A stretch of 64,000 nucleotides of DNA, from assembly GCF_030519655.1 (NCBI RefSeq), contig NZ_JAUMIT010000004.1, positions 186,001-250,000 on the forward strand, written 5' to 3'. The stretch is from Wenyingzhuangia gilva. GTDB lineage: Bacteria; Bacteroidota; Bacteroidia; Flavobacteriales; Flavobacteriaceae. The position numbers and the translations under genes are program-made. Below, in pieces: positions 15,536 through 19,759 of this stretch (position 1 is its first letter; each line of letters starts with the position of its first letter). Below the pieces are notes generated by a model that was given only the letters and a program-made list of their open reading frames with translations, searched no databases and had not been told where the DNA came from.

Positions 15536-17221
15536 TTATTTGTAAAAGCTAGCTTCGTAAGTTTTGGTATTTCCTAATACATCTTGAATTTTAAGCTTAA
15601 AAGCATGCTGTTGTTGGGTAGCTTTTAAATCTTCTAAGTCAAAAAATAATCTGTTTTTTTTAGGTTGATACTCCATTAAAATCCATTTTCCATCAATGGT
15701 AGCGTAATAGTTTTTGATGTCAGTTTCTTTGTCTTTTATATGAATACTCAACGTTTTATGATTGCTTATATTTTGTTTGTTATAAAAGCTAGGTTTGTAA
15801 ATAATTGGGGGAATACTATCAAATTTTAAATAGAAATCACCTAAATATTTTGTGTTGGTATATATTTTATTGTCTTTTCTGTAAGTACTTACATAATTAT
15901 AGTGACGTCCACTTTTATAGGCAAAATACACATACTTTTTTTCATTGGCAGATAAACTATCTGTAAAATACGTTAACGTATAATTTTTGTTTAAGGGTAA
16001 ATTGGGTTTGTGAACATGAACGGCATTTTTACTCACACGATAGTCTAAATAAACATCCTCGTAAAAAGTGTTTTTAGGGAATCTAATTTCTGAATTCCCT
16101 TGTTTAAACACTGTATATTTATTTTGATTTACAAAATAAGGCGTTTCTAAATTTTCCTTAATAATAGGAGTGATGATTTTATTCCCTTTGATAGGAACTC
16201 TAATAATGGTAGTATTATTAGCAAAATCTTTTACAATAATTTCTACACGATAATGTTCTTGGTCTTTAATTTGTAAAAAACCTTTGTTTTGATCTGTTTT
16301 GTAAATAGACAATCTATTAGACGGATCTATATAAGTTTTTTGATATTTTTTACGATGCTTTGCATAATATCCATAATCAATTAACAAATTGATGTATTTA
16401 CTTTCATCAAAAGCAAAAGTTTCTAAATCGTGATGATAGACCAAAGTATCGTTTACAGTCATATCAATACTATAAACCCCATTTTTATTGGGAGCATTGT
16501 TCAGTAAATCATGTGTGTTGATTTGTAGCCCAATTGTTCCGATAGCTTCTACTTCATCAGAAACAAATAAGTGACTGTTTATTTTTTCTACATGAATATT
16601 TTGAGCTACAGGAATTTGATTTACCGCAGCATTTTCTCCTATAGGAGTAACTCTTAGTCCACCAAAATGAGGGGTGATGTTGTCAGGAACCTCTAATCCA
16701 AATAACAATGGATTGATGATTTTTTCTGTTTTGGTATCCCTAATTTCAAAATGTAAATGAGGAGCTGTAGATCCTCCAGAATTTCCAGAATAGGCAATAA
16801 TCTCATTTTTTTCTAAAGCCAATTCGTCCCTATTTGGAAAAACTTGAATTTCAAAAGACTCTTTTTCGTATTGTTTCTGTTTGATGTATTTTTCAATTTT
16901 ATCACTAAACTTTTGTAAGTGTCCATAAACGGTTGTATATCCGTTAGGATGGGTAACATAAATGGCTTTTCCATATCCCCAAAGTGAAATTTTAATTCTA
17001 GAAACATATCCTTCTTTGGCTACATGAACTTCTTTTCCACTAATTCCTTTTGTTTTGATGTCTATTCCAGAATGAAAATGATTGGTTCTTAATTCACCAA
17101 AAGTTCCAGCAAGAATGATAGGGAAGTCCAATGGATTTCTAAAATCATTTTTAGGGTATTTTTGTTGACTAAATGTGATACAAAAAGTAAGTAAGTTGAC
17201 TAAAAAGAGATGTTTTTTCAA
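15536..17221 (-). CDS. M23-family metallopeptidase (LytM-like), exported
   Basis: A 561-residue protein with a signal peptide (HLFLVNLLTFCITFSQ) and an M23 zinc-peptidase domain about residues 25-175. Zinc ligands are visible in NHFHSGIDIKT (HxxxD) and TAPHLHFEIRD (HxH), with the associated AYSGNSGGS loop. Intact ligands mean it is probably active on peptidoglycan cross-links. About 380 further residues form an uncharacterised C-terminal extension rich in beta strands. The start codon is TTG at 17221; a TAnnTTTG box 24 bases upstream leaves no room for a longer version. It is the first gene of an operon with the TonB-dependent receptor. Confidence 0.9.
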   Translation of the reverse strand: MKKHLFLVNLLTFCITFSQQKYPKNDFRNPLDFPIILAGTFGELRTNHFHSGIDIKTKGISGKEVHVAKEGYVSRIKISLWGYGKAIYVTHPNGYTTVYGHLQKFSDKIEKYIKQKQYEKESFEIQVFPNRDELALEKNEIIAYSGNSGGSTAPHLHFEIRDTKTEKIINPLLFGLEVPDNITPHFGGLRVTPIGENAAVNQIPVAQNIHVEKINSHLFVSDEVEAIGTIGLQINTHDLLNNAPNKNGVYSIDMTVNDTLVYHHDLETFAFDESKYINLLIDYGYYAKHRKKYQKTYIDPSNRLSIYKTDQNKGFLQIKDQEHYRVEIIVKDFANNTTIIRVPIKGNKIITPIIKENLETPYFVNQNKYTVFKQGNSEIRFPKNTFYEDVYLDYRVSKNAVHVHKPNLPLNKNYTLTYFTDSLSANEKKYVYFAYKSGRHYNYVSTYRKDNKIYTNTKYLGDFYLKFDSIPPIIYKPSFYNKQNISNHKTLSIHIKDKETDIKNYYATIDGKWILMEYQPKKNRLFFDLEDLKATQQQHAFKLKIQDVLGNTKTYEASFYK

Positions 17222-17244
17222 AAAAATGCATTTAAGGGTTACAC

Positions 17245-17252
17245 AAAAATAT
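17245..17252 (-). promoter_or_regulatory. Candidate -7 box (TAnnTTTG) of the M23-receptor operon
   Basis: On the minus strand TATTTTTG matches the consensus exactly and predicts a short leader before the TTG start at 17221. Confidence 0.5.
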
Positions 17253-17330
17253 TATAATATCTTAAAATACACTTATAAAAGTCTGAGAAACAAACTTTAT
17301 AATGAATTTTACAATTTAGTGTATAAAAAA

Positions 17331-17360
17331 TTGGATTTAAGAATAACAATGCTATTTTTG
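17331..17360 (+). promoter_or_regulatory. Promoter of the zapB-like/zapA operon
   Basis: TTG at 17331-17333 and TATTTTTG at 17353-17360 are separated by 19 bases, matching the flavobacterial -33/-7 promoter (TTG, then TAnnTTTG). This is the best-formed promoter in the window. It serves the coiled-coil gene at 17387, zapA and possibly the RNA and rny downstream. Confidence 0.7.
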
Positions 17361-17386
17361 TATATAAGGTTTTAGCGATATTAACT

Positions 17387-17677
17387 ATGGGAAGTCAACA
17401 AAATATCATTGCCTCGTTAGAGGCTAATATTGAACAACTTCTAGAGCGCTACGAGTTTTTACAAAAAGAAAATCAGATTTTATCTAATAGTAATTTTGTG
17501 TTACAGCAGACTAATAAAGGATTGGAAGACGAAATTTCTTTTTACAAAGAACAGTTGCAAGTGTTAAAAATTGCTAAAACTATAGGAGGTAGTGAAGGAT
17601 ATAAGAAGGATACGAAAGCTAAAATTGATTTTTTAGTTGCAGAAATAGATCAATGTATTAAAGAATTAAATACATAA
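17387..17677 (+). CDS. Coiled-coil protein upstream of zapA (ZapB-like)
   Basis: A 96-residue protein that is almost entirely helical coiled coil, with heptad-spaced leucines and isoleucines (IIASLEANIEQLLERYEFLQ, LEDEISFYKEQLQVL). It lies 11 bases upstream of zapA with a strong promoter before it. The position and size match a small coiled-coil gene commonly found before zapA in flavobacteria, so a role with the FtsZ ring, analogous to ZapB, is a reasonable inference. There is no direct sequence motif that proves it. Cytoplasmic; no membrane segment. Confidence 0.7.
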   Translation: MGSQQNIIASLEANIEQLLERYEFLQKENQILSNSNFVLQQTNKGLEDEISFYKEQLQVLKIAKTIGGSEGYKKDTKAKIDFLVAEIDQCIKELNT

Positions 17678-17688
17678 GCTCTTTTAAA

Positions 17689-17985
17689 ATGGCGGATACA
17701 TACAAAATTAATGTAGCAATAGGAGGTAGAAATTATCCCATTTCTGTAAAATCTACAGAAGAAGAACAAGGGGTAAGAGCCGCTGCTGTAAACATTAATA
17801 AGTTAATAGCAGATTATGAAAGTAATTATGCTGTAAATGATAAACAAGATGTTTTAGCCATGTGTGCCTTGCAGTTTGCTTCTATTTTAGAAGTAAATAA
17901 GGTCATCAAAGAAGAAGAAAATAATGCAATAACAACTAAATTGTCAAAATTAAATAGTAAATTAGAATCGTATCTAGATAAATAG
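17689..17985 (+). CDS. zapA: Cell division protein ZapA
   Basis: ZapA bundles FtsZ filaments and stabilises the Z-ring. The 98-residue protein has the N-terminal beta-alpha domain (YKINVAIGGRNYPISVKSTE) with the conserved EEQGVRAAAVNINKLI helix and a C-terminal coiled coil (EVNKVIKEEENNAITTKLSK) used for dimerisation. Length and order are normal. It is second in an operon with the coiled-coil gene. The following gap contains a probable 6S RNA, the same gene order as zapA-ssrS in many bacteria. Confidence 0.92.
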   Translation: MADTYKINVAIGGRNYPISVKSTEEEQGVRAAAVNINKLIADYESNYAVNDKQDVLAMCALQFASILEVNKVIKEEENNAITTKLSKLNSKLESYLDK

Positions 17986-18010
17986 AAAGTTCTTTACATA
18001 GAAATAAAAA

Positions 18011-18175
18011 CACTGCCTACTTTGGTTTTCGTTTGATAAACTCAACACTATATCTTTAAAAAGGATGAGTCTATTGTGTTAAAGCGAGCTGTATTTTGTA
18101 CAGATACTTGATCACAATGTTAGTCCTAAAACATGTTTTTTGGAGTTTATAAAACTAACCTCAGTAGGTTTTTTT
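18011..18175 (+). ncRNA. ssrS: 6S RNA candidate (6S-Flavo type)
   Basis: The 214-base gap between zapA and rny folds as one long rod. CCTACT (18016-18021) pairs with AGTAGG (18163-18168), GGTT (18024-18027) with AACC (18157-18160), and ATAAACTC (18036-18043) with GAGTTTAT (18143-18150). Inside lie a hairpin AACAC/GTGTT (18044-18048 and 18076-18080) and a second one, CTGTA/TACAG. The final stem is followed by seven T (18169-18175), which would end the transcript. A long closed rod with an internal bubble is how 6S RNA binds the housekeeping RNA polymerase and inhibits it in stationary phase. The location next to zapA matches known 6S genes. No separate promoter is obvious, so it may be processed from the zapA transcript. 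Confidence 0.72.
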
Positions 18176-18199
18176 ATATATATAATTTAACTCAAACTA

Positions 18200-19759
18200 A
18201 TGAATACAATCATAATACTCGTTGCTATTGCGGCCTTAATCGTAGGGTTTATAGTAGCAAAAATGCTAGAGAAGTTTAAGGCTTCTCAAATAACGGTTCA
18301 GGCAGAAAAAGAAGCTGCTTCTATTGTTAAAGAAGCAAAATTGACTGCAGAAACTGTTAAGAAAGATAAAATTTTACAAGCCAAAGAAAAGTTTATTGAG
18401 CTTAAAGCTGAACATGAAAAAGTAATTTTATCTAGAGAGAAAAAAGTTGCCGAATCTGAAAAAAGGGCAAAGGATAGAGAAACCTCTCTAAATAAAGAAA
18501 TAGAACGTGAGAAGAAATTAAACAAATCTCTTGAAGAAAAAGAATCTGATTATGCGTACCGTTTAGAGTTTTTAGAAAAGAAACAAGCAGAGTTAGATAA
18601 AATGCACAAAAAGCAAGTAGATATGCTTGAGTCTATTTCTGGTTTGTCTGCTGATGAAGCCAAAATACAATTGGTAGATTCTTTAAAAGCTGAAGCCAAA
18701 ACAGATGCCATGGCTTATATAAGAGATACTCTGGAAGAGGCAAAATTAACAGCAGAGCAAGATGCTCGTCAATTAATTTTAAACACCATTCAGAGAGTGG
18801 GAGTAGAGCAATCTATAGAAAACTGTGTGTCTGTGTTTAATATAGAATCAGACGATGTAAAAGGTCGTATTATCGGTCGTGAAGGTCGTAATATTAGAGC
18901 GATTGAAGCTGCTACGGGAGTTGAAATTATTGTAGATGATACACCAGAAGCAATTATTCTTTCTTGTTTTGACCCTGTTCGTAGAGAAATTGCTCGTTTG
19001 TCTATGCATAAATTGGTGACAGATGGCCGTATTCACCCTGCTAGAATTGAAGAAGTAGTAGAGAAAACAGAAAAACAAATTAACCAAGAAATTATAGAAG
19101 TTGGTAAACGTACAGTGATTGATTTAGGAATTCACGGTTTACATCCAGAATTGATTAAAACCATTGGACGTATGAAATTCCGTTCATCATATGGACAAAA
19201 CTTATTACAACACTCTAGAGAAGTTGCTAATCTTTGTGGATTGATGGCAGCTGAATTAGGGCTGAATGTGAAGGCTGCAAAAAGAGCAGGATTGTTACAT
19301 GATATAGGTAAAGTGCCAGATACTGAAAGTGAATTACCACACGCATTATTGGGGATGGAATGGGCAGAGAAATATGGTGAAAAACCAGATGTTTGTAATG
19401 CCATTGGAGCACACCACGATGAAATTGAAATGAAGACCATGTTAGCACCAATTGTTCAAGTTTGTGATGCAATATCAGGAGCAAGACCAGGAGCAAGACG
19501 TCAGGTATTAGATTCATACATTCAAAGATTAAAAGACTTAGAAGATTTAGCATTTGGATTCACTGGAGTTCAAAAAGCTTATGCGATTCAAGCAGGACGT
19601 GAATTACGTGTATTGGTTGAAAGTAATAAAGTAACAGATGAGCAAGCTTCAGATTTATCATTTAATATTTCTCAAAAAATACAAACTGAAATGACTTATC
19701 CAGGTCAGGTAAAAGTTACGGTAATTAGAGAAACAAGAGCGGTGAATGTAGCGAAGTAA
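18200..19759 (+). CDS. rny: Ribonuclease Y
   Basis: RNase Y is a membrane-anchored endoribonuclease that starts mRNA decay. The 519-residue protein has an N-terminal membrane helix ([20 protein letters not shown]), a long coiled coil (about residues 30-200, rich in Lys and Glu), a KH RNA-binding domain ([19 protein letters not shown], about 215-280) and an HD phosphohydrolase domain ([13 protein letters not shown] and [13 protein letters not shown], about 330-430) carrying the metal ligands. All catalytic elements are intact. It is preceded by the 6S RNA candidate and followed by a perfect terminator hairpin. Confidence 0.97.

Follow-up and report, generated by a model that had tools for sequence, protein, structure and literature searches.

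The gap between zapA and rny in the window, a stretch of DNA of 64,000 nucleotides, encodes a Bacteroidota 6S RNA of the 6S-Flavo class. Directly past the zapA stop codon it carries a boxA-like element. The only conserved sigma-A promoter of the unit, as judged from sequence comparison, lies upstream of a zapB-like gene. The RNA is probably the boxA-assisted 3' end of a zapB–zapA transcript, whose two arms would pair to give both the closing stem and a terminator; this reading is held with moderate confidence. That the RNA is a member of RF01685 is known, while its boxA-like leader is new as far as the literature was searched. Neither the boxA-like element nor the promoter upstream of zapB was part of the preliminary description of this DNA.

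The 6S-Flavo RNA and its neighbouring genes

All features described here lie on the plus strand. A ZapB-like protein of 96 aa is encoded at 17387..17677 (PF06005, 25.0 bits, E 2.6e-5, below the Pfam cut-off of 31.5) and is followed by zapA at 17689..17985 (98 aa; ZapA, PF05164, 54.9 bits). The gene for RNase Y, rny, occupies 18200..19759 (519 aa); it matches PF12072 with 123.8 bits and contains HD and KH domains. The preliminary description had named zapA and rny as neighbours, and the matches to PF05164 and PF12072 in the window bear this out. The gap between them, from the zapA stop codon at 17985 to the start of rny at 18200, is indeed non-coding, as no open reading frame of at least 60 aa overlaps it on either strand.

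The preliminary description had also assigned this gap to a 6S RNA and had proposed a search with the RF01685 covariance model as a check. That search gave a significant match at 18040..18148 on the plus strand (E 7.1e-16), which covers all 108 model positions; its score of 97.9 bits exceeds the cut-off of 85. Nothing else in the window passed an Rfam cut-off, and a permissive Rfam rescan of 17000–19000 returned the same 6S-Flavo match and nothing else. Binding of RNA polymerase would be expected of this RNA, by analogy with other 6S RNAs.

RF01685 is widespread in the family to which the window appears to belong, the Flavobacteriaceae: 290 of 299 family genomes match it at E <= 0.001, with one match each. 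A draw across the phylum gave matches in 37 of 296 genomes, namely the window's own genome and 29 others from its family, six from a second family in the order, probably the Weeksellaceae, and one from a different family of the class. The locus L065 was found with RF01685 alone at 38 bits. The 131 family loci used below combine the high-scoring matches of the family survey with the family matches from the phylum draw, and are not a random sample. A zapA-like open reading frame lies upstream of the 6S RNA in 130 of these 131 loci (by a profile made from 58 of those same frames), and rny lies downstream in 126. It is a matter of speculation that the zapA–6S–rny neighbourhood ties stationary phase to mRNA decay. 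Two zapA–rny gaps without a 6S RNA, L201 and L206, contain a T run with, by eye, a short hairpin before it; perhaps a simple terminator has replaced the 6S RNA there.

Closing helices and a predicted terminator

A full-length covariance model, R1, places the RNA at 18013..18174 with 140.3 bits, in close agreement with the extent of 18011–18175 first proposed. R1 was built from alignment A1, in which the window's own sequence is included. A1 comprises 70 RNAs, hand-picked for variety from the 121 distinct ones no longer than 185 nt among the 131 loci; L086 was excluded because it has no T run.

The RNA is closed by an outer and an inner helix, both of which are supported by alignment, fold and covariation. 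The 5' arm of the outer helix, at 18015..18027, pairs with the 3' arm at 18157..18169, in the window as 7 + 4 pairs with a small internal loop between them. The inner helix joins ATAAACTC (18036..18043) to GAGTTTAT (18143..18150). Three nested stems had been picked out by the preliminary description, and all were recovered: CCTACT/AGTAGG lies inside the 7-bp helix of 18015–18021 with 18163–18169, GGTT/AACC pairs 18024–18027 with 18157–18160, and the third is the inner closing helix itself. The T7 tract at 18169..18175 and every other part then described, internal hairpins included, are likewise present in the gap.

The same three stems appear when 18013–18183 is folded as a single sequence, at -42.8 kcal/mol (z = -4.30), a value that none of 200 shuffles equalled. 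The structure predicted from A1, with its 70 distinct relatives, has six helices and 38 pairs, 98.8% paired, and takes the 6S-Flavo shape, a helical rod with a large internal bubble, supported by covariation. Double changes are found in 25 of the 38 pairs, compared with a shuffled mean of 15.5, and none of 500 shuffles reached 25. The whole-structure covariation score is 0.401, against 0.197 for shuffled alignments and at most 0.096 when the partner is slid. For the outer helix (A1 columns 3–13 with 174–184) pairing stands at 98.6%, with double changes in 8 of the 11 pairs.

The outer helix ends at 18169, within the T7 tract, so that the stem is followed at once by a T run. Because its 3' arm meets T7 directly, the closing stem is shaped like an intrinsic terminator that has the RNA itself as its loop. 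A loop that spans a whole RNA is unusual for an intrinsic terminator. Termination at this site is predicted from this form. A chance inverted repeat in the DNA, or part of a promoter, was also considered as an explanation of the closing stem. The window's TACTTTGG loosely resembles TAnnTTTG, but these readings were dropped because the TA becomes TG or CA in relatives, with the partner changing too.

The three stems fall beyond the Rfam model or at its margin; the model contains neither closing helix, nor the T tract, nor the leader. R1 was run on 56 loci. It recovered the six loci of the second family (73 to 85 bits), L065 with 51 bits and, in other orders of the class, 13 rny loci with E values from 5.5e-11 to 0.012; apart from these, only two weak matches came up to E 1, both on the opposite strand in second-family loci. 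When 20 loci, among them L065 and L059, were scanned with Rfam at a permissive E of 0.01, a 6S RNA was called in L059 only; nine of the 13 class loci were in this set, and none of them was called. The fuller 6S model thus reaches loci of other orders beyond the Rfam 6S-Flavo model, which omits both closing helices.

A boxA-like element at the end of zapA

The boxA-like element of the window, GTTCTTTACATA, lies at 17989..18000, 3 nt past the zapA stop codon. A block reading GTTCTTTAAAATA, or a variant of it, is found family-wide upstream of the 6S 5' arm. In 121 of the 131 family loci the word GTTCWTW lies no more than 90 nt upstream of the RNA, compared with 35 of 2825 background windows, these being the other 90-nt windows of the same loci. 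Of the ten loci without it, seven show by eye a word close to it (GGTCTTT, GCTCTTT, GTTCTGT or similar); L086 has only a weak ATTCTTA, and in L094 and L137 nothing boxA-like was seen near the zapA stop codon. These last three loci retain a zapA-like open reading frame and the 6S RNA, and come from genomes of 1.1 to 1.6 Mb; since the genomes are small, the loss of boxA may reflect genome reduction.

The first base of the element falls 0 to 5 nt past the zapA stop codon in 110 of the 123 loci that match a relaxed pattern (130 have a zapA frame); in 108 of 125 loci it precedes the 5' arm by 22 to 25 nt. The window's GTTCTTTACATA lacks a single base of GTTCTTTAACATA and is not an exact fit to the consensus GYTCTTTAANA, which was made for gamma-proteobacteria; the GTTCTTTAACATA or GTTCTTTAAAATA of other relatives does fit it. 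Such a word on its own is not rare in the window's genome, where GTTCTTTRMMWTA, which matches neither the window's element nor the genome's own rRNA leader, occurs 11 times against 12 for a reversed control.

The core of the element is like that of rRNA leaders from the same lineage. Leaders of the family carry GTTCATTAACATA, GTTCATAAACATA, GTTCATTGACATA and similar words. A scan with one pattern found the boxA-like core in 12 of 14, at 114 to 160 nt upstream of 16S; the remaining two, including the GTTCATTGAGAATA of the window's own genome, fit by eye. A matrix made from the 12 leaders alone scores at least 7 in 85 of the 131 6S loci, compared with 1.51% of shuffles. Position 5 differs within the family, being mostly T before 6S and mostly A before rRNA. 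In other orders a 16S match was obtained in 5 of 14 genomes, and all five leaders have GTTCTTTGAA or GTTCTTTAAG, which are closer yet to the 6S form.

Two other stable RNAs were taken as controls. RNase P RNA is preceded by boxA in 0 of 16 genomes. For tmRNA, a stricter pattern found a boxA-like word within 90 nt upstream in 4 of 16 (at -62 in L267), and because some tmRNAs are preceded by such words, the boxA-like word is not special to 6S. In tmRNA loci L258 and L264, GTTCTTT stands 14 or 15 nt before the mature 5' end, and in L257 a boxA-like word stands 54 nt before it. Weaker words lie within 15 nt of the mature end in L262, from the window's own genome (CTTCTTT), in L267 (ATTCATT) and in L255, L265 and L266 (TTTCATT). 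Like 6S, tmRNA is an RNA with paired ends.

Association of boxA with 6S across the class

Of 60 class genomes searched for RNase Y, 55 gave a match, and 50 loci were examined. A zapA profile located zapA in 47 of these, the window's own included, and in none of L213, L217 and L230; the comparison leaves out the window's own locus and these three. Where a 6S RNA was called by core motif and long stem, boxA follows zapA in 11 of 12 loci, compared with 3 of 34 loci without 6S (Fisher P 3e-7), rows that are not fully independent because some share a family or genus. When 6S is called instead by R1, which has no boxA columns, the counts are 12 of 13 and 2 of 33. In L196 the boxA word overlaps the end of the zapA frame.

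A search of genomes with R1 gave matches in 19 of 119. Seven 6S loci were newly seen, of which six follow zapA, and by eye all six have boxA directly past the stop codon. Locus L288 of genome G602 shows the order zapA–boxA–6S. The association has exceptions. All six second-family loci lack GTTCWTW within 90 nt upstream of the model; their zapA lies 50 to 67 nt before the model start, with rny downstream. L207 has a 6S RNA without boxA, though the rRNA leader of its genome carries GTTCTTTGAAATA. L291, the seventh of the newly seen loci, has a 6S-like RNA with no zapA in the locus and, by eye, no boxA, and in L065 a 6S-like RNA is present, with no zapA found and no GTTCWTW.

Promoters and the transcription unit

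A sigma-A type promoter is recognised by its sequence at 17331..17360, with TTG at 17331–17333, a spacer of 19 nt and TATTTTTG at 17353–17360. It lies 26 nt before the zapB-like start and is presumably active. Of the family loci, 62 have at least 880 nt of upstream sequence. In all 62, TAnnTTTG occurs exactly once at 651 to 700 nt before the start of the Rfam model, upstream of zapB, and in 61 it is part of a full TTG-N17-21-TAnnTTTG. Two stray full matches fall between the zapB promoter and the RNA, in L010 and L044. A promoter matrix, trained on the zapB-upstream set itself, scores at least 10 in 95% of 97 stretches upstream of zapB, compared with 2.7% of shuffles; between mid-zapA and the 5' arm no locus of 131 reaches this score. 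From these signals the likeliest transcription unit is promoter–zapB–zapA–boxA–6S–terminator, with rny beyond.

An ordinary 6S gene could have a promoter of its own that the scan fails to see, driven by an alternative sigma factor or a weak sigma-A site, with the GTTCTTTA block as part of that promoter or as an activator site. The fairly fixed distance between the block and the 5' arm within the family (22–25 nt in 108 of 125 loci) would suit such an arrangement, as would the detection of 6S among the known RNAs of the F. psychrophilum transcriptome, reported in the available text of PMC9723704. Genes for stable RNAs can, moreover, go without a nearby TAnnTTTG: it lies within 90 nt upstream of tmRNA in only 7 of 16 genomes, and because of this the promoter test is incomplete as a test of every stable RNA. 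In 14 of 16 genomes, on the other hand, the 90 nt ahead of RNase P RNA contain TAnnTTTG, against which the lack of a sigma-A signal from mid-zapA to the 6S arm stands out. The block is also found in rRNA leaders, where it lies downstream of TATATTTG-type promoters by eye, and outside the family its distance to the arm grows to as much as about 100 nt (L208, L212) while it remains at the zapA stop codon. For these two reasons, its place behind rRNA promoters and its position at the zapA stop codon even where the RNA lies farther off, the promoter reading of the GTTCTTTAAAATA block was marked down. A 6S gene with its own promoter is considered rather unlikely.

A further alternative is that boxA serves rny, in that a polymerase modified at boxA passes the 6S terminator and so expresses RNase Y. 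There is little room for a promoter of rny itself, as the ATG that follows the T tract is a median of 20 nt away from it (n = 130). In none of 131 loci was a full sigma-A promoter found within the RNA or up to 110 nt past it; TAnnTTTG alone occurs in those 110 nt in 14 of the 131. L086, L094 and L137, in which boxA is lost or weak, are among the five family loci without rny downstream, but reduction of these 1.1 to 1.6 Mb genomes may explain that loss. Against a role in rny expression, zapA–rny loci without 6S seldom carry boxA (3 of 34), the second family has rny and no boxA, and G602 has zapA–boxA–6S yet no RNase_Y_N match at 91% completeness. This explanation is given little weight.

A plain 6S-Flavo gene with a boxA-like sequence that is conserved but plays no part in antitermination is very unlikely. 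The word is not rare in the window's genome and some 6S loci manage without it, but it is present in 121 of 131 loci compared with 35 of 2825 windows, rRNA leaders have a like core, and it is associated with 6S across the class.

A proposed model for boxA-assisted 6S formation

The favoured reading, in which the 6S RNA is the boxA-assisted 3' end of the zapB–zapA transcript, can be set out as a series of steps. Transcription would begin upstream of zapB and continue through zapB and zapA. At the zapA stop codon, where ribosomes leave, boxA would load NusB/NusE as it does in rRNA leaders, and NusB/NusE on boxA may then shield the untranslated stretch from Rho. Tethering of boxA would keep the 5' arm close to where RNA leaves the polymerase, so that it could capture the 3' arm some 150 nt later. 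Pairing of the arms would form the closing stem of 6S and the terminator stem at once. The 6S RNA would then be cut from the zapBA transcript and go on to sequester RNA polymerase, while part of transcription is expected to read through the terminator and feed rny. Co-transcription, Nus-factor binding, protection from Rho, tethering and excision are each proposed here.

The idea of tethering is borrowed from work on rRNA boxA and would apply here by analogy. According to the available text of Warner et al. 2023 (PMC10250234), rRNA boxA stays anchored to NusB as the growing RNA forms a loop, and the trailer, on emerging, pairs with the leader. The same text reports that insertion of 6 or 12 nt after boxA had an effect similar to loss of boxA, and that this loss cost only 2- to 3-fold. 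The 6S and rRNA elements share a like core in the same or related genomes, and both precede the 5' strand of a long-range helix that closes a structured RNA, a helix that tethering is proposed to aid in the rRNA case (PMC10250234, in the text available). The geometry at 6S is rRNA-like, with boxA followed by about 10 nt, the 5' arm, about 130 nt and the 3' arm. The spacing is shorter, about 10 nt from boxA to the arm compared with 18–19 nt from boxA to boxC in Enterobacteriaceae (PMC10250234, as available). Unlike rRNA, the 6S RNA here is only about 160 nt long and follows a translated gene, and its long-range helix ends in a T tract.

A bolder form of the proposal is that 6S in Bacteroidia is an rRNA-style product which has no promoter of its own and is carved from the 3' end of the zapB–zapA message; a boxA-tethered polymerase would make it, keeping hold of the 5' arm up to the emergence of the 3' arm, which closes a terminator with a loop of about 150 nt. 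This generalisation is tentative and somewhat doubtful. If true, the supply of an RNA that idles polymerase would depend both on the Nus factors behind rRNA synthesis and on the transcription of cell-division genes. Growth control has 6S RNA at one end and the rRNA antitermination machinery at the other; a functional boxA before 6S would join both systems and extend boxA to a small regulatory RNA. The boxA tethering model could then be tested on a short RNA rather than on the 1.5-kb rRNA.

Relation to known systems

No report of boxA ahead of a 6S RNA was found in the open literature searched. boxA elements outside rRNA operons are known from suhB and other genes (Baniulyte et al. 2017, PMC5725501); those in the available text of that work differ from the present element in that they precede protein genes, and the survey states there that non-coding RNAs were not considered.

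A 6S gene beside zapA is known in beta- and gamma-proteobacteria, as set out in the available text of PMC7641849. The comparison outside Bacteroidota was made with E. coli K-12 only. There, ssrS is similarly placed directly downstream of zapA (zapA–ssrS–fau), but the next gene is fau rather than rny, and no boxA-like word is present in the 400 bases scanned up to ssrS.

The one paper found in the open literature searched to use the term '6S-Flavo' is PMC2864571, from 2010, the available text of which counts RF01685 among RNAs that do the same job as a known class. The RNA of the window resembles this class in matching the entire Rfam model above cut-off, and differs from the Rfam description in the closing helices examined here, the T tract and the leader. 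A 6S RNA of the same phylum, that of Bacteroides thetaiotaomicron, has been detected experimentally together with its product RNAs, pRNAs (Ryan et al. 2020, PMC7366714, in the text available).

The 3' strand of the RNA has a feature of its own. It reads TTG-N15-19-TAnnYYTG in 100 of 131 relatives, loosely like a Bacteroidota sigma-A promoter. Mimicry tuned to Bacteroidota sigma-A was rejected as an explanation, since the exact TAnnTTTG occurs at that spacing in 0 of 131 and loci of one genus, g128, have CAAAACTTG. Promoter mimicry by this strand is a possible but weak suggestion.
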